Both the position numbers and the translations under genes were made by a program. This document shows positions 468 through 8,341 of a stretch of DNA of 8,475 nt, in pieces; within the stretch, counting starts at the first letter, position 1, and the number at the start of each line of letters is the position of its first letter. The stretch is taken from contig JAFDCC010000190.1 in assembly GCA_019312985.1 (NCBI GenBank), positions 1-8,475 on the forward strand, in the 5' to 3' direction. The DNA comes from Deltaproteobacteria bacterium (GTDB lineage: Bacteria > Desulfobacterota > Desulfobulbia > Desulfobulbales > BM004). Under the pieces are notes generated by a model. That model did no database searches. It worked only from the letters and a program-made list of their open reading frames with translations, and was not told the origin of the DNA.

Positions 468-1010
468 CTAGAATGAATCGTAGTGAACAAATTCTTCCGG
501 CTCGAGTCGCTTCGGCGGGGACGGTTCATGGTCCGGGTATCCCAGTGGGATGAGGACCAGAACCTCGTGCTCCGGCGGCAGCTTGACAATCTCCCCAACC
601 TTTTCGTGGTCAAAGAGGCCGACGATTACCGTTCCCAGCCCTGCTTCGTGGGCCGCGAGGCAGAGGTTCTGGGTGGCCAGCCCAAGATCGTACATGAACC
701 AGTCTCCAAACTTTGTCGGGTACTGGTCACTGTAAAAACCGGACCGTTTCAGCTGGCCGCAGACGACGAGGAGTATCGGGGCATTTACCAGTGCCAGCGA
801 GGAGGGGTTGCGTGGCGAAACGGTCTCCTGGATCTTTTTCTTTACTGCGTCATCCCGGACCACGACAAAATGCCAACACTGGGTATTGGCCCACGACGGG
901 GCCCAGCGGGCCGCCTCAAAGAGCCTGCCGAGCAGTTCGTTCGGCACAGGTTTATCCGCGTAGCGGCGAATGCTTCTCCTGCCCCGGATGACATCCATCA
1001 GATCAGACAT
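468..1010 (-). CDS. Nitroreductase-family FMN flavoprotein
   Basis: This 180-residue protein has the plan of the nitroreductase superfamily: cytosolic FMN enzymes that use NAD(P)H to reduce nitroaromatics, quinones, enones or related electrophiles. The N-terminal flavin phosphate-binding motif RRSIRRY is at residues 11-17. APSWANTQCWHF at 37-48 is the usual 'AP(S)..N.Q.W.F' segment. The central helix and glycine stretch at about 104-131 (DLGLATQNLCLAAHEAGLG, then GLF) and LIPLGYP at 153-159 close the fold. The length is typical of the short single-domain subfamily. The ATG at 1010 follows GGAG with 7-nt spacing. The gene begins 24 nt after the wrbA stop, so it is the last gene of a three-gene operon ended by the terminator at 380-413. 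The physiological substrate cannot be read from sequence. Family assignment is secure; subfamily is not. Confidence 0.93.
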   Translation of the reverse strand: MSDLMDVIRGRRSIRRYADKPVPNELLGRLFEAARWAPSWANTQCWHFVVVRDDAVKKKIQETVSPRNPSSLALVNAPILLVVCGQLKRSGFYSDQYPTKFGDWFMYDLGLATQNLCLAAHEAGLGTVIVGLFDHEKVGEIVKLPPEHEVLVLIPLGYPDHEPSPPKRLEPEEFVHYDSF

Positions 1011-1034
1011 GGTATTCTCCTTCTCCTGGTTCAG

Positions 1035-1646
1035 TTATTGTGAGAGTTTTGCGGCAATTGTCGCGACATGATTCCCCTGGTAACGGGCTCCTTCCAGTTC
1101 ATTGTCGCTGGGCATCCTTTCCCCTGTCGGGCTGGCGATGGTGGAGGCGCCGTATGGCGACCCCCCGGTGATCTCATCCATGCGCGTCTGTCCCTGAAAA
1201 GCATAGGGAAGTCCGACAATAACCATACCGTGATGCAGCAGTGTCATGTGAAACGAGACAATTGTGGTTTCCTGACCGCCATGCTGGGAGCCGGTGCTGA
1301 CAAAGACGGATCCGACCTTGCCGACCAGGGCCCCTTCCTGCCAAAGCTTGCCGGTGCTGTCGAGAAACTGCCGCATCTGACCACACATATTGCCGAACCG
1401 TGTCGGGGTCCCGAAAATTATGGCGCCAGCCGCGGCAAGGTCCTCCACCGTGCAGACCGGCACCCCTGCCATCCCTTCCTGGGCCGCCACGGCACCCATT
1501 TTTTCCAGGACTTCCCGGGGTAATGTTTCCGGGACCCTGCGGAGAACCGGCTCAGCCCCTTCAACCCGGGCAACCCCTTCGGCAATGGCCTGGGCCATCC
1601 TGTAGATGTGGCCGTACAGCGAATAAAAAGGGATAAGTACTTTCAT
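1035..1646 (-). CDS. wrbA: NAD(P)H:quinone oxidoreductase, WrbA type
   Basis: This 203-residue flavodoxin-like protein matches the WrbA family, tetrameric FMN enzymes that reduce quinones by two electrons and so avoid semiquinone radicals. Visible signatures are the phosphate-binding loop SLYGHIYRM (9-17), [14 protein letters not shown] (79-92), the flavin-contacting [10 protein letters not shown] (117-126), HHGMVIVG (138-145), [11 protein letters not shown] (161-171) and the C-terminal ARYQG (187-191). The start is set at the ATG at 1644-1646 because a full AGGAGG lies 8 nt upstream and the family begins with (A)KVL. An earlier in-frame ATG at 1685 would add 13 residues ([13 protein letters not shown]) lying over the end of the protease gene and is unlikely. 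The gene follows the M48 protease stop by 19 nt and precedes the nitroreductase by 24 nt. The pairing with a second flavin reductase suggests a shared role in handling quinones or electrophiles. Confidence 0.96.
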
Positions 1647-1654
1647 TGTCTTCT

Positions 1655-1660
1655 CCTCCT
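1655..1660 (-). promoter_or_regulatory. Strong Shine-Dalgarno of wrbA (AGGAGG)
   Basis: A complete AGGAGG on the minus strand sits 8 nt before the ATG at 1644-1646. It decides that start against the in-frame ATG 39 nt upstream, which lies inside the M48 protease 3' end. It is located just 5 nt past the protease stop, so ribosomes finishing the protease would end beside it. Confidence 0.85.
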
Positions 1661-1665
1661 TGATT

Positions 1666-3219
1666 TTATTCAAGTAAATCCGCACCGGTTATCTCGATGC
1701 GGATGGCATTCAGTGCAGTGGCGCCCTTGAAGGGGCCGAGTTCGAGAGCGGCAAAGTAAACCTGGCCGGGACCGATGGTGGCAGCAATCGTCCGGACGGC
1801 CTGCAGCCCCTCCCCGGCAGGACCGGGGTAGCGGACAAGGAACTGCAGGTTTCTGAGACCTACCGGCGCCTGGTTGCTGATGCGTGCCTGGAGATACCCT
1901 TCGGGACCCAGGCCGATCAGGATCTCGATATACCGGCGGGCGTAGTTCTGAAAATCGAGGCGCAGAAGCGCTGTCCTTGCCTGCATCCCCACCTGGGAAT
2001 TGGATGCGGCTGCCTCGGCAAAATACTGGATGGCCTGCTGGCGCGCCCCCCGGGAGAGCTCCAGTTCACCCATACTGTTATACGCCGTAGCAGTCGGCAG
2101 CAGCCGTGTGCTTTTCTCGAGGTCGGCGAAGGCGTCCTCCCCAAGGTTCAGTTTTTTCCTGGTCTTACCCCGCTGCAGGTAGAAGTAGAAATAGTTGTCG
2201 TTGCGCTCGATGGCCCTGCTGTAATCGGCCAGGGCATCCTGGTAACGCTCCTGCATATAGTACGTGTCACCCCGCAGGGCATAAAACTGGGCCTCCCGCG
2301 GCTCAATTTTGATGGCCTCCTGGGCATATGCCCGGGCCTTTGGGGCATCATCGTTTTGCAGATACTCCCTGCCTATATCATAGTTTTCGTAAGCCCTCCT
2401 GCTTCTATCGAGAGAAGCGATGCGCTGCCGGTAAATCTCCTGCCCGACCTTGCCGCCTTTGGGCAGCCGGGATAAGGTTACCCGGTTGTCCTGGACCCGA
2501 TCCAATGAAGGAGGATGGCTGGCAAAAAGGCCGGCCAGCCAGTTGCTAGACCGGTTTTCCTGCAGACGGACAAATGTTTCCTGCAGGTAGACGGCGGCCA
2601 TGGGATCATAGCCGCTGCGGGACATGTACTGCATGCCATAGAAATCGGCCTCCCGTTCGTCTTCACGGCTGTACCTCGTCTGGATCAGCCCGGCCGCCAC
2701 CTGGGCCCCGCCGACAATGAGATTGGCGTAATCACTGCCTCCGGCGGCAATGCCCGTGGCGATGAGGGCCCCCTGGAGCATCATGCCCTTTTCCATCTGC
2801 CGGGCCCCGTGCCGGGCAGCTGCGTGGACAATTTCATGCCCCAGGACGGCGGCAAGTTCGGCCTCACTGTTGAGCTCCAGCAGCAGTCCCCGGTTTATCG
2901 CTATTTTACCACCGGGCAATGCCCAGGCATTGGGGGTGCTGTTGTTCAGCACCGCAAACTCGTAGGGCAGTTTCCGGTCGCTGACCGCTACCAGTTTCTG
3001 TCCGACTTCATTGACATAGGCCGTAACCTTCGGATCGACGGTGTAGTCGCCTCCCTGCATCTGCCTGCTGGGGGCAAAATTTTCCGAGCCGATATTTATT
3101 TCACTCGATTCGGGAATGATGGCCAGCTCGTTTCTGCCGGTTACGGGATTAACCGCGCAGCCGTAAACAAAGAGACAGGACAGTAAAAGTATGGGGACTG
3201 AGCGCGGCATTGCCAGCAT
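1666..3219 (-). CDS. M48 family zinc metalloprotease lipoprotein with TPRs (BepA/YfgC-like)
   Basis: This 517-residue protein is an envelope-anchored metallopeptidase of the BepA/YfgC kind, which in E. coli degrades or helps assemble stalled outer-membrane proteins. The N-terminus is a lipoprotein signal: a hydrophobic run ([12 protein letters not shown]) then Cys21 (VYG-C, an acceptable lipobox). The zinc site is H128-E-I-V-H132, with the third ligand probably E190 in [19 protein letters not shown] at 234-241 matches the conserved His-containing segment near the active site. TPR-like helical repeats cover about 275-420 (for example [20 protein letters not shown]). After about residue 430 comes a beta-rich tail that BepA lacks. 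The ATG at 3219 has GGAG 8 nt upstream; a second ATG at 3210 is less well placed. It heads the operon with wrbA and the nitroreductase, behind a plausible promoter. Subfamily function is inferred from architecture. Confidence 0.94.
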
Positions 3220-3323: not shown

Positions 3324-4412
3324 TCATGGCTTCCTGCCGGTGGAAAACCACGCAACATATTTTTGCGTAAGGCTGTCCCAGGAAAAACGGGCCGCCAGTT
3401 CCTTCAGTTTCTGCCTCTCGTTATTCACCGGGTTTTTCAACAGCGATTTCAGCCGCGGGAAAAGTTCATTGTCCTCGTAGAGGTACTCTTCGGGAAATAG
3501 TTCGGGATAGGACAAGCGCTTCGGCAGCAGGGGTAAACAGCCGGCCCGGACCGCCTCGATAACCGCGATACCGTAAAACTCATGGCCGGCGGTTGAGACG
3601 ACAATATCGCCCTGTTGCAGCAGTTGCGCATATTCATCCGGTGAATCGACAAAGCCCCAGTGAAGAATCTTGGGCTGCAGCCTCTTCTTCGCCTCGGAAA
3701 AAATTGCCGGTCTTCGCCGGAAGGACTGGCCCAGGACAATCAGCCGAAAATCCGCGCCGGCTTTCTCAAGGTCCAGGATTGTCCGGAAAAAGAGTTCCGG
3801 GTTCTTGTCGTGTTCCCAGCGGTGATTCCAGACAACGACCGGCGGACCCGGCTTATTCTCCCGGCCCTTGCCGGCGGAGTCGATCCGGCTGAAATCAACA
3901 CCGGGGTTGAGGATTGAAATTTTTGTCTGAAGGGAGGCGGGGCTTTCTGCAAGTTTCATGTCAGGGCATATCTTCAGGATTTGTTCCGTTCCCCGGAGAA
4001 AGGTCTGCAGGTTGTAGCGGGTATTGAATGCCGCCCTGTCAGAGGCAAGAATTGTAGTGAAATTTGTCAGGCCGAAATGAAAGTCCCGTTCGTCCTCCCG
4101 CTGGACCGGGTAGGCAAACTGGTTCTCGTGAAAATAACTGTAAATGGGTATCTGCTGCAGAGGACCGGGGAGAAGTGCACGCAGGGCGGCAACATCAACA
4201 AAGGAGGAACAGAAGATGATGTCAGGAAGGTCAGCTTTTGCCCTGGCTGTTATTTTTTCTGCAAAATAGGGAGCGGCGAGCCGCATGCGCCATTTCCACT
4301 TGCGGGCCGGAAGACTCAGCAGCTTGAAGTCAAAGGGCAGGTGATTTTTCAGCCCGTTGAGAAAGGTCTTGTGCGAGCCGCCGTAATATGGCTCAAGAGC
4401 CAGGATTTTCAC
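3324..4412 (-). CDS. Glycosyltransferase, bacterial homologue of tRNA-queuosine alpha-mannosyltransferase (QTMAN/GTDC1, former DUF3524)
   Basis: This 362-residue cytosolic GT4/GT-B-type glycosyltransferase matches the QTMAN/GTDC1 family. The vertebrate enzyme transfers mannose from GDP-mannose to queuosine-34 of tRNA-Asp. From memory of the human protein, the shared N-terminal signatures are YYGGSHK (9-15), LPARKWKWR (34-42), SYFHENQFAYPV (92-103) and ERDFHFG (108-114). The C-terminal half has NHRWEHDKNPE (196-206) and the retaining-GT E-x7-E motif at E278/E286 within HEFYGIAVIEA, then the sugar-nucleotide-binding region LPLLPKRLSYPELFP. The start is GTG at 4410-4412, overlapping the HyuA stop as GTGA. 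The conserved first strand (KILALEPYYGG) leaves little room for another start. It is the last gene of the right-hand operon. Family membership is strong. Acceptor (tRNA Q, another nucleoside or a glycan) and donor sugar in this organism are inference. Confidence 0.88.
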   Translation of the reverse strand: MKILALEPYYGGSHKTFLNGLKNHLPFDFKLLSLPARKWKWRMRLAAPYFAEKITARAKADLPDIIFCSSFVDVAALRALLPGPLQQIPIYSYFHENQFAYPVQREDERDFHFGLTNFTTILASDRAAFNTRYNLQTFLRGTEQILKICPDMKLAESPASLQTKISILNPGVDFSRIDSAGKGRENKPGPPVVVWNHRWEHDKNPELFFRTILDLEKAGADFRLIVLGQSFRRRPAIFSEAKKRLQPKILHWGFVDSPDEYAQLLQQGDIVVSTAGHEFYGIAVIEAVRAGCLPLLPKRLSYPELFPEEYLYEDNELFPRLKSLLKNPVNNERQKLKELAARFSWDSLTQKYVAWFSTGRKP

Positions 4413-6421
4413 GAGCCTTCTCTCTCGATGACAAGGTTGTGAAACGTATCCACTTCCAGGGAGAAAGATGCCGGGAGAAGGACGGTCGTATAGTTATCGG
4501 CAACCAGGGCCGGACCGGAAAGGGTTGCGCCCGCCACCATCTCAGCCCGGTCGAATACCGGGACCCGGACCGGATTTTCGCCGAAAAAGAGTTCCTGTTC
4601 CGTAAACGGTAAAGCCTTGCAGCGAGCCTTCTTTTTTGCCCTGGGAAGAGGCCGCTGCGGCCGCCGCACCATGACAGAGGACTGGATCGAGATGAGTTCA
4701 AGGGGGGTATTGTCCAGTCTGTAGCCGAAGTTATGCTCGTGAACCCGGTGGAAGTGTTCCTGAAAATCTTCCCCGTACGGAACGGAGAGTTCGTACGACT
4801 GCCCCTGATAGCGCAGATTGAGAAAACGGGTTACGGCGGTGCGGCCCGGATCTTCGGCACGGCCGAGTTTTTCCGCCTCGGCGAGTCCTTTGGCGACCAG
4901 GGTGTCCATTGCCTCGGACAGAACAGGGGAGTCAAGTTCATCGCCGCGGAGAAACAGGGCCTGCATGGAATCGAGGACCGGATCGGCAAAGACCATGCCC
5001 TGGGCCGAGAGAATTCCGGCCCGGGCCGGAATGACAATGGAGCCCATGGCCAGTTCACCGGCAAGTTCGCAGCAGTGAAGCCCGGAAGCCCCGCCAAAGG
5101 CAAAAAGGCTGAATTCCCGGGGGGCATATCCCCTCTCCAGGGAGACGGCACGGATCGCCTTCGCCATGCTGGCGTTGACGATGCGGATTATGCCCAGCGC
5201 CGCGGCAACGGCATCAAGCTGCAGCTCCCCGGCAAGTCTTGTCATGGCATCATCCACCTTTTCTTTGCGAAGACGCATGGCGCCGCCCATGAATTTCTCC
5301 GGCAGCAGACGGCCGAGAAAAAGGTTGGCATCGGTTACGGTGAGCTGTTGGCCGCCAACCCCGTAGCAGATGGGGCCCGGTCGGGCGCCGGCGCTCTGCG
5401 GCCCCACCTTGAGAAGGCCGCCGCTATCAACGTGGGCCAGCGAGCCGCCGCCGGCGCCAACCGTGTGGATGTCAATGACCTCGATCCGGATTGGATATCC
5501 GTCGATGATATGGTCTCTCGTCAAAGTCGGAGTTTCGTCACAAAGGGAAACATCGGTGGAGGTGCCGCCCATGTCAAAGGTGATGATCCTGTCCCGCCCC
5601 ATTTCCTGGGCAAGCTGGTGCGCTCCGTGCACTCCCCCGGCCGGGCCTGATAGCACGGTGTTAACGGCCCGTTTTTCCATGTCAACGGCCGGCAGGACGC
5701 CGCCGTTGGACTGCTGGATATGGAGGGAAACCCCACCGATCTGCTGCAGGAGCCGTTTGATGTAGGATGACACCACCGGGCCGAGATAGGCGTTCACCAG
5801 CGTCGTTGTCAGCCGTTCGTACTCCCTGAATTCCGGCAGTATCTCCGAGGAAAGTGTTACGGGAAGATGCAGGGGGGCAAGTTCTGCCCCGATGAACCGC
5901 TCATGGGCATCGTTGGCATAGGAATGCAGGAAGCAGACGGCGACGGACTCTATGCCCTTATCCCGGCAGAGCGCGCGCAGCCTCTTTCCCACCGTTCTGC
6001 CCGGTGCCTGCCGGACGGTGCCGTCAAAAAGCATTCTTTCCCGAACGCCGGTCACCAGGTCACGGGATATAATCTCAGGCGGCCTGGTGATGTTGAAATC
6101 GTAAAGGTTCGGTCTGTTCTGGCGGCCGATGAACAGGACATCCTCAAAACCGTGGGTGGTGACGAGGAGCGTTCTGGCACCCTTGCGCTCCAGGAAGGCG
6201 TTGGTGGCCACCGTGCTGCCATGGATGATTTCCAGGTTCTTCGGCAGCCTGTTGCCGAAAAAGTGGTGCAGCCCCTTCATGATGGCACGGGAAGGGTCCG
6301 CCGGCGTCGAGGGAAGCTTGAAGGTCTGAAGGCCTGCGTCCGACTGCAGAACAAAATCGGTGAACGTCCCGCCGGTATCGACACCGAGGACGAGCCTTTC
6401 TTTTTCAGAGGTTCTCTTCAT
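4409..6421 (-). CDS. Hydantoinase/oxoprolinase family protein (HyuA type)
   Basis: This 670-residue protein is full length for the HyuA family, ATP-dependent cyclic-amide hydrolases or carboxylases (N-methylhydantoinase A, 5-oxoprolinase N-half, acetone/acetophenone carboxylase subunits). The ASKHA-type nucleotide-binding fold shows the N-terminal phosphate loop DTGGTFTDF (15-23), HGSTVATNAFLERKGA (67-82), LSGPAGG (257-263), the second phosphate motif TFDMGGTSTDVS (281-292), GAGGGS (322-327), GARPGPICYG (345-354) and AFGGASGLH (441-449). The C-terminal domain covers about 530-670. The ATG at 6421 lies inside the last codons of the ABC ATPase (17-nt overlap) with no clear Shine-Dalgarno, suggesting translational coupling. 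Its stop overlaps the glycosyltransferase GTG. No HyuB partner lies on either side in this window, which is unusual. The substrate cannot be deduced. Confidence 0.93.
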   Translation of the reverse strand: MKRTSEKERLVLGVDTGGTFTDFVLQSDAGLQTFKLPSTPADPSRAIMKGLHHFFGNRLPKNLEIIHGSTVATNAFLERKGARTLLVTTHGFEDVLFIGRQNRPNLYDFNITRPPEIISRDLVTGVRERMLFDGTVRQAPGRTVGKRLRALCRDKGIESVAVCFLHSYANDAHERFIGAELAPLHLPVTLSSEILPEFREYERLTTTLVNAYLGPVVSSYIKRLLQQIGGVSLHIQQSNGGVLPAVDMEKRAVNTVLSGPAGGVHGAHQLAQEMGRDRIITFDMGGTSTDVSLCDETPTLTRDHIIDGYPIRIEVIDIHTVGAGGGSLAHVDSGGLLKVGPQSAGARPGPICYGVGGQQLTVTDANLFLGRLLPEKFMGGAMRLRKEKVDDAMTRLAGELQLDAVAAALGIIRIVNASMAKAIRAVSLERGYAPREFSLFAFGGASGLHCCELAGELAMGSIVIPARAGILSAQGMVFADPVLDSMQALFLRGDELDSPVLSEAMDTLVAKGLAEAEKLGRAEDPGRTAVTRFLNLRYQGQSYELSVPYGEDFQEHFHRVHEHNFGYRLDNTPLELISIQSSVMVRRPQRPLPRAKKKARCKALPFTEQELFFGENPVRVPVFDRAEMVAGATLSGPALVADNYTTVLLPASFSLEVDTFHNLVIEREGS

Positions 6422-7214
6422 CAGGGGAAAGGTACTTGTCCGGAACAGGGGTCACCCTGGCAACCCGGCCCAGGGGGCTTTCGTCTACCTGCATCCGACA
6501 GCCGTATGTTTTTTCGAGAAGATCCCGGGTGAGAACATCGCCGGGAGTACCGGTCCTGACCTCCCTCCCCTCCTTGAGAAGAAGGAGGCGGTCGCCGTAC
6601 ATCGAGGCCAGGTTCAGGTCATGCGACACCATGACGACGGTGGTCCCCTGCTCCCGGCAGAAACGCTCCATCAGGTCCATGATCTTCAGCTGGTGCGCCG
6701 GATCAAGGGCGGTGGTCGGCTCGTCGAGCAGGATTATCTCGGGCTGCTGGCAGATGGCCCGGGCAATGATCACCCGCTGCAGTTCACCGCCGCTCAACTG
6801 GAAGAGTTTGCGCTCCGCCAGGTGCACGACATCGGTGAACTCCATGGCCTGGCGCGCAAGAGCGAAGTCTTCTTCATCTTCCATGCCGAGCATGCCGAGG
6901 TGGGGAGTACGCCCCATGACAACGGTTTCGGCAACGGTAAAAGGAAAACCGACCTCTACCTGCTGCGGCACAATGGCCATGATTTTTGCAAGATTGCGCC
7001 TCGAGTAGGATTCGATGTTTTTACCCTTCACCGTCAGCGTCCCCCTGCTCGCTTTCTGCAGCCCGGCGAGCACTTTCAGCAGGCTTGTTTTGCCGGCGCC
7101 GTTGGGACCAATCACCATGAAAAACTCACCGGCGCACACCGAAAAATTAACATTTTCAAGAATAATTTTATCACGGTATTCCAATGATATATCTTTAATA
7201 TCGAGAATCTGCAT
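6405..7214 (-). CDS. ABC transporter ATP-binding protein, BtuD/FecE family
   Basis: This 269-residue cytoplasmic ATPase powers import through the adjacent permease. Motifs are Walker A GPNGAGKT (36-43), Q-loop PQQ (83-85), signature LSGGE (140-144), Walker B IILLDEP (160-166), D-loop ALD and the switch His198 in VSHD. VVMGRTPHLG (98-107) and the C-terminal TGTPGDVLTRDLLEKTYG are characteristic of ATPases of cobalamin, haem and ferric-siderophore importers. The ATG at 7212-7214 shares one base with the permease stop (TAATG) and follows AGGA at about 5 nt, so longer readings upstream are rejected. The extension after residue 240 (to 269) is ordinary for the family. Substrate is unresolved between cobalamin and iron chelates. 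Confidence 0.95.
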   Translation of the reverse strand: MQILDIKDISLEYRDKIILENVNFSVCAGEFFMVIGPNGAGKTSLLKVLAGLQKASRGTLTVKGKNIESYSRRNLAKIMAIVPQQVEVGFPFTVAETVVMGRTPHLGMLGMEDEEDFALARQAMEFTDVVHLAERKLFQLSGGELQRVIIARAICQQPEIILLDEPTTALDPAHQLKIMDLMERFCREQGTTVVMVSHDLNLASMYGDRLLLLKEGREVRTGTPGDVLTRDLLEKTYGCRMQVDESPLGRVARVTPVPDKYLSPDEENL

Positions 7215-8341
7215 TAATTCCTGTGCCGGATAAGAAGGATGATAAAAAGCGGTGCGCCGATAAGGGCGGTGATGATGCCAACCGGCAGTTCTCCCGACGA
7301 GGGGATCACCCGGGCCAGGAGGTCGCAGACGATGAGGTAGGAAGCACCGCCGAGCAAACACGAGGGGACGAGCAGACGGTGGTCCGGGCCGAACACCATC
7401 CGGAAGATATGGGGAATGACGAGGCCGACAAATCCCACCAGACCCGAGAGGCTGACAATGATGCTGACCATGAGCGAGGTGACGACGAGGAGGACGAGAA
7501 TGGTATTTTTCACATTGATCCCCATGGCCGCCGCGGTCTCCCTGCCGAGAAGGAGAAGGTTCATGGGACGGGCCATGATGAAGATCACCGCAAAACAGGG
7601 CAGTACCAGAAAAAGAATGGAAAGCTGCCCCTTCTGCAGGGCGGCGAGGTCACCCATGAGCCAGTAGAGGATGTGCTGCACTTGAAACGAACGGGTCATG
7701 GAGATGAGAAACATGATAACCGCGGCACAGAAGGCGTTCATCATTACGCCGCCGAGCAAAAGTGAATCCCTGCTGAGCATGGTGTTGCCGAGGGTGGCCC
7801 CGGCCAGGGTAGTGACAAAGGCGAGCACCAGGAGGCTCCCGCCAAAGGAAAAGAGAGCGACCCCGGGAAAATAGGAAAGGCCGAGCAGCATTGCGAGGAT
7901 GGCGCCGATGGCCGAGCCTCCTGATATGCCAAGAATGTAGGGTTCGGCCAGGGGGTTGCGCAGCAGGGCCTGGAACACCAGGCCGCCGAGCGCCAGGGTG
8001 CCTCCGACAAAGGCGGCCAGGATTACCCGGGGCAGCCGGATCTGCCAGATGATGGTGCTGCTCACCGAGTCAGGGTCGCCATTGCCGACCAGGATAGCCA
8101 GGGTTTCCATGAAGTGGGTGCCCGACGACCCTGCGGAAATTGCCAGGATGGCGCTGCATGCGAGAACAACACCGAGAAGCAGGGTTGTAACTGTTATCTT
8201 GACACCGATGGACATTGTTTTTTGAGAATTTTTGTTTCCTGCCGAAACGGCCGGGATTTTTTTCCTTTTCATACCAGCTATCTTCCCCGGTCGCTCAATA
8301 ATCCTTGAAAAATGGTAAAAAAACGGGGCGGACCGCGTCAT
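7214..8341 (-). CDS. FecCD/BtuC-family ABC transporter permease
   Basis: This 375-residue inner-membrane permease belongs to the type II importer family used for cobalamin, haem and iron chelates. About ten hydrophobic segments run from residue 48 to the end. Family hallmarks are RLPRVILAAFVGG (102-114), LLRNPLAEPYILGISGG (126-142), the ATPase-coupling stretch LVGFVGLVIPHIFR (301-314) and the C-terminal PSSGELPVGIITALIGAP (347-364). The ATG at 8341 forms an ATGA overlap with the binding-protein stop and has AAGGG close upstream. That start gives an unusually long polar N-terminus of about 45 residues. An in-frame ATG at 8272, preceded by GGGGAAG at 9 nt, would give 352 residues, closer to the usual length. 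Start choice is therefore uncertain; the family is not. Confidence 0.94.
   Translation of the reverse strand: MTRSAPFFYHFSRIIERPGKIAGMKRKKIPAVSAGNKNSQKTMSIGVKITVTTLLLGVVLACSAILAISAGSSGTHFMETLAILVGNGDPDSVSSTIIWQIRLPRVILAAFVGGTLALGGLVFQALLRNPLAEPYILGISGGSAIGAILAMLLGLSYFPGVALFSFGGSLLVLAFVTTLAGATLGNTMLSRDSLLLGGVMMNAFCAAVIMFLISMTRSFQVQHILYWLMGDLAALQKGQLSILFLVLPCFAVIFIMARPMNLLLLGRETAAAMGINVKNTILVLLVVTSLMVSIIVSLSGLVGFVGLVIPHIFRMVFGPDHRLLVPSCLLGGASYLIVCDLLARVIPSSGELPVGIITALIGAPLFIILLIRHRN

Follow-up and report, generated by a model that had tools for sequence, protein, structure and literature searches.

A bacterial member of the tRNA-queuosine mannosyltransferase family and its occurrence alongside queuosine genes

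The founding paper on QTMAN (GTDC1), the tRNA-queuosine mannosyltransferase of animals, is said to be that of Zhao et al., published in Cell in 2023. In bacteria, queuosine (Q) at tRNA position 34 (Q34) is the substrate of GluQRS (YadB), the glutamyl-queuosine tRNA-Asp synthetase and a relative of glutamyl-tRNA synthetase, which acts on Q34 of tRNA-Asp at the same diol. The animal product is described as alpha-mannose on the allylic hydroxyl of Q (PMC8654956, PMC12518689), and the role of mannosyl-queuosine (manQ) is called unclear (PMC12518689). For galQ and manQ, mass transitions of 572 to 163 and 572 to 295 are listed in PMC12313893. In the literature cited here, glycosylated queuosine is described from animals only; lectin-binding RNA has been reported from E. 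coli, the nucleoside being unnamed in the available portion of that report (PMC12873605). The gene described in this work lies on an 8,475-nt contig (JAFDCC010000190.1; this whole stretch is hereafter called the window) of a metagenome-assembled genome (MAG) from the Desulfobacterota, and encodes a glycosyltransferase of the QTMAN family.

The N-terminal domain of this family, PF12038, has been named after QTMAN by Pfam, and the bacterial protein P0345 carries the NCBI name 'tRNA-queuosine alpha-mannosyltransferase domain-containing protein'; the window gene is thus one more member of a known family. What we add is a test of queuosine dependence and a link to thiI. Because PF12038 genes were found only alongside queuosine-making genes in the genomes sampled from two phyla, it is likely that bacteria make sugar-decorated queuosine too. 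Among the open-licence literature matches listed, none deals with manQ in bacteria or with a bacterial enzyme of the PF12038 family, and no bacterial member of tested activity was found.

Homology of the window protein to animal QTMAN

The window protein matches PF12038 (QTMAN_N) far above the curated cut-off (192.1 bits against 25; E = 8e-57) and over the complete profile (positions 1-168 of 168), and PF00534 (Glycos_transf_1) with 44.8 bits against a cut-off of 26.4; such agreement is well outside what chance would give. Animal QTMAN sequences were retrieved with a human query sequence. Residues 1-358 of the window protein align with macaque QTMAN (E = 8e-74), and identity to alligator QTMAN comes in two pieces, 38% over residues 1-168 and 47% over residues 183-358. 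The motifs named in the preliminary description were all found: YYGGSHK, LPARKWKWR, YFHENQ and ERDF start at residues 9, 34, 93 and 108, and the E-x7-E motif consists of E278 and E286. In the aligned vertebrate proteins the counterparts of the first two read FYGGSHK and LPAKKWHWR, while YFHENQ, ERDF, the sequence HRWEHDK and both glutamates of E-x7-E are identical to those of the window protein. An alignment of 22 sequences contains 56 invariant columns, including YFHENQ, R198, W199, E200, D202, K203, E278 and E286; with 55 sequences aligned, E278, E286, R198 and K203 are still invariant, and F94 of YFHENQ is conserved in at least 90%. Full-length homology is accompanied by conservation of E-x7-E and of the donor-side residues. 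We take R198 and K203 to be the expected diphosphate-binding pair of GT4 enzymes. The donor-binding roles expected of R198, K203 and E-x7-E are those of GT4 enzymes such as PimA.

Structure prediction, which the preliminary description had suggested, yielded for the window protein a confident GT-B fold of GT4 type. Searches by sequence returned no solved structure of the PF12038 family, the best of three matches being a generic GT4 protein (E = 6e-4), and no structure of the family is among the fold matches listed. Tetrahydrobiopterin glucosyltransferase (9v0l, 9v0w) also appears among the GT4 fold matches listed; its acceptor is a pterin, chemically near deazaguanine.

Out of 7998 candidates scored, 5380 proteins match the window protein at E <= 0.001, and the best 120 of these 5380 all carry PF12038. 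The nearest relatives are 65-95% identical, and the family is absent from all 14 control genomes, among them that of the Q-making E. coli, in which QueA and TGT are found. A profile built exclusively from animal proteins (82 sequences) was then used to scan open reading frames (ORFs) of at least 100 amino acids. The first set comprised the window together with 2338 ORFs from 80 related loci and from the locus that holds the second PF00534 glycosyltransferase of the host. The profile recovered one gene per locus in 80/80 loci and the window gene, which ranked second of the 81, and in this set no other ORF matched at E <= 1. It recovered exactly one gene per locus in another 41 loci, taken from two phyla (3143 ORFs), in which no gene is 90% or more identical to any of the 80-locus set. 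It is this profile that groups the window protein with animal QTMAN over other glycosyltransferases, the trees holding no outgroup from outside PF12038.

A first tree combines five animal sequences with the window protein and those from 79 of the 80 loci; in it the window protein groups with L002 and L003 (100/97) and then with L004 and L005 (99/98). The second tree has 61 rows picked from several sources; one side of a 99/99 split holds the window clade, the animals, a thiI-linked clade described below (including the Coriobacteriia protein P0349), L076, P0243, P0297, L142 and L170. As this tree is rooted at its midpoint, its animal rows fail the composition test and it contains no other GT4 outgroup, we claim only that the animals lie on the window's side, and propose no direction of transfer. 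Whole-length alignment and trees bear out the view, put forward in the preliminary description, that the protein is a bacterial homologue of vertebrate QTMAN. Its presentation there as a bacterial member of the family stands as to membership, with the correction that the bacterial family is large and already bears the QTMAN name in Pfam and at NCBI.

Occurrence alongside queuosine genes and next to thiI

The host MAG has a size of 1.59 Mb and a completeness of 61%, and it contains two PF00534 glycosyltransferases including the window gene. Going by the nearest relatives (L003, Desulfobulbaceae), the host would probably be placed in the Desulfobacterota as well. Of the queuosine genes, queA, queH, queG and tgt were searched for. 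Full-length queA (G000:C277) and queH (G000:C25) were found. A further queH copy is partial and sits at a contig end (G000:C3), and tgt is represented by its C-terminal half, which lies at the very end of contig G000:C47 and scores below the cut-off; absence of the pathway from the host, named beforehand as a finding that would tell against the proposal, did not occur.

Within the host phylum the distribution of PF12038 is patchy (19 of 148 genomes), and QueA is present in 146 of the 148, all 19 carriers included. TGT, QueH and QueG were searched in 25 genomes of this phylum, namely the 19 carriers, two genomes without QueA and four others. All 19 carriers have TGT matches, the host (G000) as the fragment below the cut-off, and all 19 have QueH; QueG was above the cut-off in none of the 25. 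Two full-length TGT genes occur in four of the 19 carriers (G018, G084, G108, G131; loci L105-L108), the second copy of which may act on another substrate, and each of the four tested TGT-bearing non-carriers has a single one. QueA was also present in 12/12 genomes drawn from the 80 loci, including G148 and those from Nitrospirota.

A second phylum, Actinomycetota, was reached via L076, which belongs to a Slackia MAG (genome G148). PF12038 is carried by 31 of the 396 genomes sampled. QueA matches in the same genomes are strong in 213 (E <= 2.4e-82), weak in 57 (E from 3.8e-76 to 1.4e-30) and lacking in 126. Every one of the 31 carriers has QueA, at E <= 6e-104, and PF12038 was found in 0/183 genomes without strong QueA (Fisher 1.9e-9, uncorrected for phylogeny); when any QueA match is counted, the comparison is 31/270 against 0/126 (Fisher 7.5e-6, shared descent ignored). 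TGT, searched in 80 of the 396 genomes, is present in 31/31 carriers and in 12/12 non-carriers with strong QueA (in G179 as two pieces below the cut-off), in none of the 25 weak-QueA genomes tested out of 57, and in two (G167, G197) of the 12 tested out of the 126 without QueA. Since TGT is found in 0/25 genomes with weak QueA matches, these matches would seem to be divergent homologues whose genomes lack queuosine. Members of this phylum include the streptomycetes, which are said to lack Q (PMC9262613). G167 and G197, with TGT above the cut-off and no QueA match, would correspond to the pattern of queuine salvagers or of another deazaguanine pathway. In the two phyla sampled, and with phylogeny uncorrected, PF12038 was found only with the Q pathway, 31/31 and 19/19 carriers having both QueA and TGT. 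One genome holds a second PF12038 gene (G468:C24:5205-5714), with an in-frame stop within the matched stretch.

thiI is a tRNA-modification gene, for the synthesis of 4-thiouridine in tRNA. It lies upstream of the glycosyltransferase gene, on the same strand, in eight of the 31 Actinomycetota carriers; one of these thiI genes was confirmed by Pfam and the others are 53-76% identical to it. From the end of the thiI alignment to the glycosyltransferase start, the distance is 7-18 bases in five of the seven cases measured, 66 in L149 and 476 in L135. Seven of the eight thiI-linked genes are in the second tree, where they form one clade (100/100).

Proposed activity and competing explanations

We consider that the window protein probably glycosylates Q34, with whatever sugar; that this sugar is mannose specifically has slightly better than even chances. 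In the reaction that appears likely, a hexose, probably alpha-mannose from GDP-mannose, is transferred to Q34, on its cyclopentene-diol, in a tRNA with a GUN anticodon, most likely tRNA-Asp. Reasoning from animal QTMAN, we would assign binding of the anticodon loop and presentation of Q34 to the N-terminal domain, and binding of the nucleotide sugar, through R198, K203 and E-x7-E, to the C-terminal domain; transfer of the sugar onto the allylic hydroxyl of the diol would proceed with retention. We infer the donor, the acceptor tRNA, the position of the hydroxyl and any effect on the decoding of NAU and NAC codons, the retaining mechanism being presumed from GT4 relatives.

Several observations weigh against this proposal. 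Homologues of TGT, QueA, QueH and GluQRS, searched with four query proteins at E <= 1e-4, occur in 0/121 flanks (80 loci, 853,600 bases; 41 loci, 677,608 bases), so that the link to queuosine is one of distribution and not of neighbourhood. Linkage to thiI was seen in a single clade, and the sequences flanking the 80 loci contain no thiI homologue. The host phylum cannot test dependence, because QueA is near-universal in it (Fisher p = 1). As for Actinomycetota, the boundary between strong and weak QueA was set after the values had been seen, and the genomes cannot count as independent, since at 60% identity the 30 gene copies retrieved collapse to 18 clusters, and at 50% to 7; the probability of the observed pattern by chance would be about (213/396)^18 = 1e-5 with 18 independent draws and about 0.013 with 7. 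The charge looked for as a hint of RNA binding, a basic one, is seen in the window protein (pI, the isoelectric point, of 9.35) and not in the PF12038 family (median pI 7.34, n=79). The interdomain linker of about 100 residues present in animal QTMAN is missing from the aligned bacterial proteins. Mutual exclusion of PF12038 and GluQRS was our own expectation, and not a published feature, because glutamyl-Q uses the same diol of Q34 in tRNA-Asp; in the host phylum no such exclusion was seen, GluQRS scoring above the cut-off in 3/19 carriers against 14/129 non-carriers (p = 0.46). The three GluQRS-bearing carriers make up one family (f44), and each has two TGT genes. Among the structural matches listed, users of UDP- or ADP-sugars outnumber those of GDP-mannose.

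The predominance of UDP- and ADP-sugar users would suit an enzyme that glycosylates queuosine with glucose, galactose or N-acetylhexosamine, or the reaction might take place on another GUN tRNA such as that for Tyr, Asn or His, an explanation that we regard as rather unlikely. In a mosquito manQ is reported on tRNA-Tyr (PMC11705514); the choice of tRNA therefore varies even among animals, and the statement in the preliminary description that glycosylated queuosine is best known from vertebrates needs correction in that manQ is not confined to them. The presence of GluQRS in three of the carriers would be easier to accommodate if the tRNA or the hydroxyl differed. Nevertheless, the identity of HRWEHDK and of the E-x7-E glutamates between the window protein and vertebrate QTMANs, and the second rank of the window protein against the animal-only profile, speak against another sugar or tRNA. 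A more distant acceptor, be it some other product of the Q pathway or a tRNA nucleoside of another kind, would make the animal acceptor a later specialisation. The divergence of second-phylum members, the lowest five of which score 115-140 bits against the animal-only profile, is compatible with it, and the thiI link points to tRNA modification in general; yet the window protein shares a supported half of the tree with the animal enzymes (99/99) and keeps YFHENQ, R198, K203, E278 and E286, and the Q pathway accompanies the gene in 31/31 and 19/19 carriers. We hold such an acceptor to be most improbable.

The GT4 fold of the model is also what an ordinary cell-envelope or exopolysaccharide GT4 enzyme would have, and many relatives bear the Joint Genome Institute (JGI) label 'glycosyltransferase involved in cell wall biosynthesis'. 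ORFs that look like sugar transferases of exopolysaccharide synthesis, judged by eye and unscanned, lie at most four ORFs away at a few of the 80 loci. The exopolysaccharide models of NCBIfam, however, all score far below their cut-offs with the window protein (EPS_HpsP 27.7 against 550, XYAG1 17.2 against 400, EpsE 17.3 against 400), and the animal-only profile sets the family apart from all other ORFs of at least 100 amino acids in the 121 loci; on these grounds an exopolysaccharide enzyme was rejected, and, with the models and ORFs tested, the placement among polysaccharide glycosyltransferases that the preliminary description had allowed for did not occur. Nine of ten recurrent neighbours scanned matched Pfam, and they are proteins such as phosphoglycerate mutase, shikimate kinase and an SRP54-type GTPase, with one glycogen branching enzyme; an association with TGT and QueA would be unexpected for an envelope enzyme, a role that we judge very unlikely. 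For glycosylation of Q34 by the PF12038 family at large, we favour on balance the view that hexosylated or mannosylated Q is a widespread bacterial nucleoside, animal QTMAN belonging to one branch of that bacterial family; the modification known from animals would then be bacterial by its distribution and may be so by its origin.

The locus and its comparison with described systems

Table 1. Features of the window (positions count from its first nucleotide).
Feature	Coordinates	Strand	Evidence or remark
QTMAN-family glycosyltransferase gene, 362 aa, GTG start	3324..4412	-	ORF call, Pfam, alignment with animal QTMAN
PF12038 QTMAN_N, residues 2-172; N-terminal Rossmann domain, expected acceptor side	3897..4409	-	Pfam, predicted model
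PF00534 GT4-type C-terminal domain, residues 187-340; expected nucleotide-sugar side	3393..3854	-	Pfam
LPARKWKWR motif, residues 34-42; L34, A36, W39 and R42 invariant in the 22-sequence alignment	4287..4313	-	
YFHENQ motif, residues 93-98; no variation across the 22 aligned bacterial and vertebrate sequences	4119..4136	-	
HRWEHDK motif, residues 197-203, containing R198 and K203	3804..3824	-	
E-x7-E motif, E278 and E286, both invariant	3555..3581	-	
Hydantoinase/oxoprolinase-like gene, upstream neighbour	4409..6421	-	Overlaps glycosyltransferase start by 4 bases

The overlap between the glycosyltransferase start and the stop of the hydantoinase-like gene reads GTGA, and a Shine-Dalgarno-like stretch, GAGAGAAGG, precedes the GTG start. 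Relatives of the hydantoinase/oxoprolinase-like gene are found at position -1 or -2 in L002-L005, the four nearest relatives of the window among the loci. Positions 468-3219 encode, all on the minus strand, a nitroreductase (468-1010), a WrbA quinone oxidoreductase (1035-1685) and an M48 protease with tetratricopeptide (TPR) repeats (1666-3219). The region 6405-8341 includes an ATP-binding cassette (ABC) ATPase, whose 261.2 bits are just at the cut-off of 261 of the heme ABC ATPase model, and a FecCD-type permease scoring below the BtuC cut-offs; it is probably an importer of heme, vitamin B12 or a siderophore. A mobile or phage gene was rejected as a description of the glycosyltransferase gene, no match having been found in plasmids, phages or viral contigs.

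Around the 80 loci, nine of the ten recurrent neighbour types gave Pfam matches: GlgB (glycogen branching enzyme), TerB-DnaJ, an SRP54-type GTPase that by our reading is ftsY, shikimate kinase, kinase-pyrophosphorylase, an AlgH-like protein, an aminotransferase, phosphoglycerate mutase and a radical S-adenosylmethionine (SAM) protein.

If Q34 is glycosylated in these bacteria, a second bacterial decoration of this nucleoside beside glutamyl-Q has been overlooked, with carriers among 19/148 and 31/396 of the genomes sampled. The role of manQ would then be open to study by bacterial genetics, and part of the queuine salvaged by animals from bacteria might originate in glycosylated tRNA. Queuosine dependence makes bacterial mannosyl-Q a testable prediction, with a concrete list of carriers. 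Among the loci, L054 and L080 come from named, cultured species, Desulfopila aestuarii DSM 18488 and Desulfofustis glycolicus DSM 9705.

Compared with the described systems, the window protein shares its fold with the GT4 enzymes PimA, PimB' and methylmannose polysaccharide mannosyltransferase, which have lipid or polysaccharide acceptors and 14-16% sequence identity to it. GluQRS likewise decorates Q34 in bacteria, but it is not homologous to the window protein and adds glutamate. Animal QTMAN has in common with the window protein full-length homology, the motifs, E-x7-E and a two-domain layout seen in both models (the alligator model has a predicted local distance difference test score, pLDDT, of 74, with low confidence in linker residues 192-273); the host of the window is, by comparison, a bacterium that makes Q itself, in which the role of the enzyme is a predicted one. 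The bacterial PF12038 (DUF3524) proteins belong to the same family as the window protein, from which they differ in nothing material.
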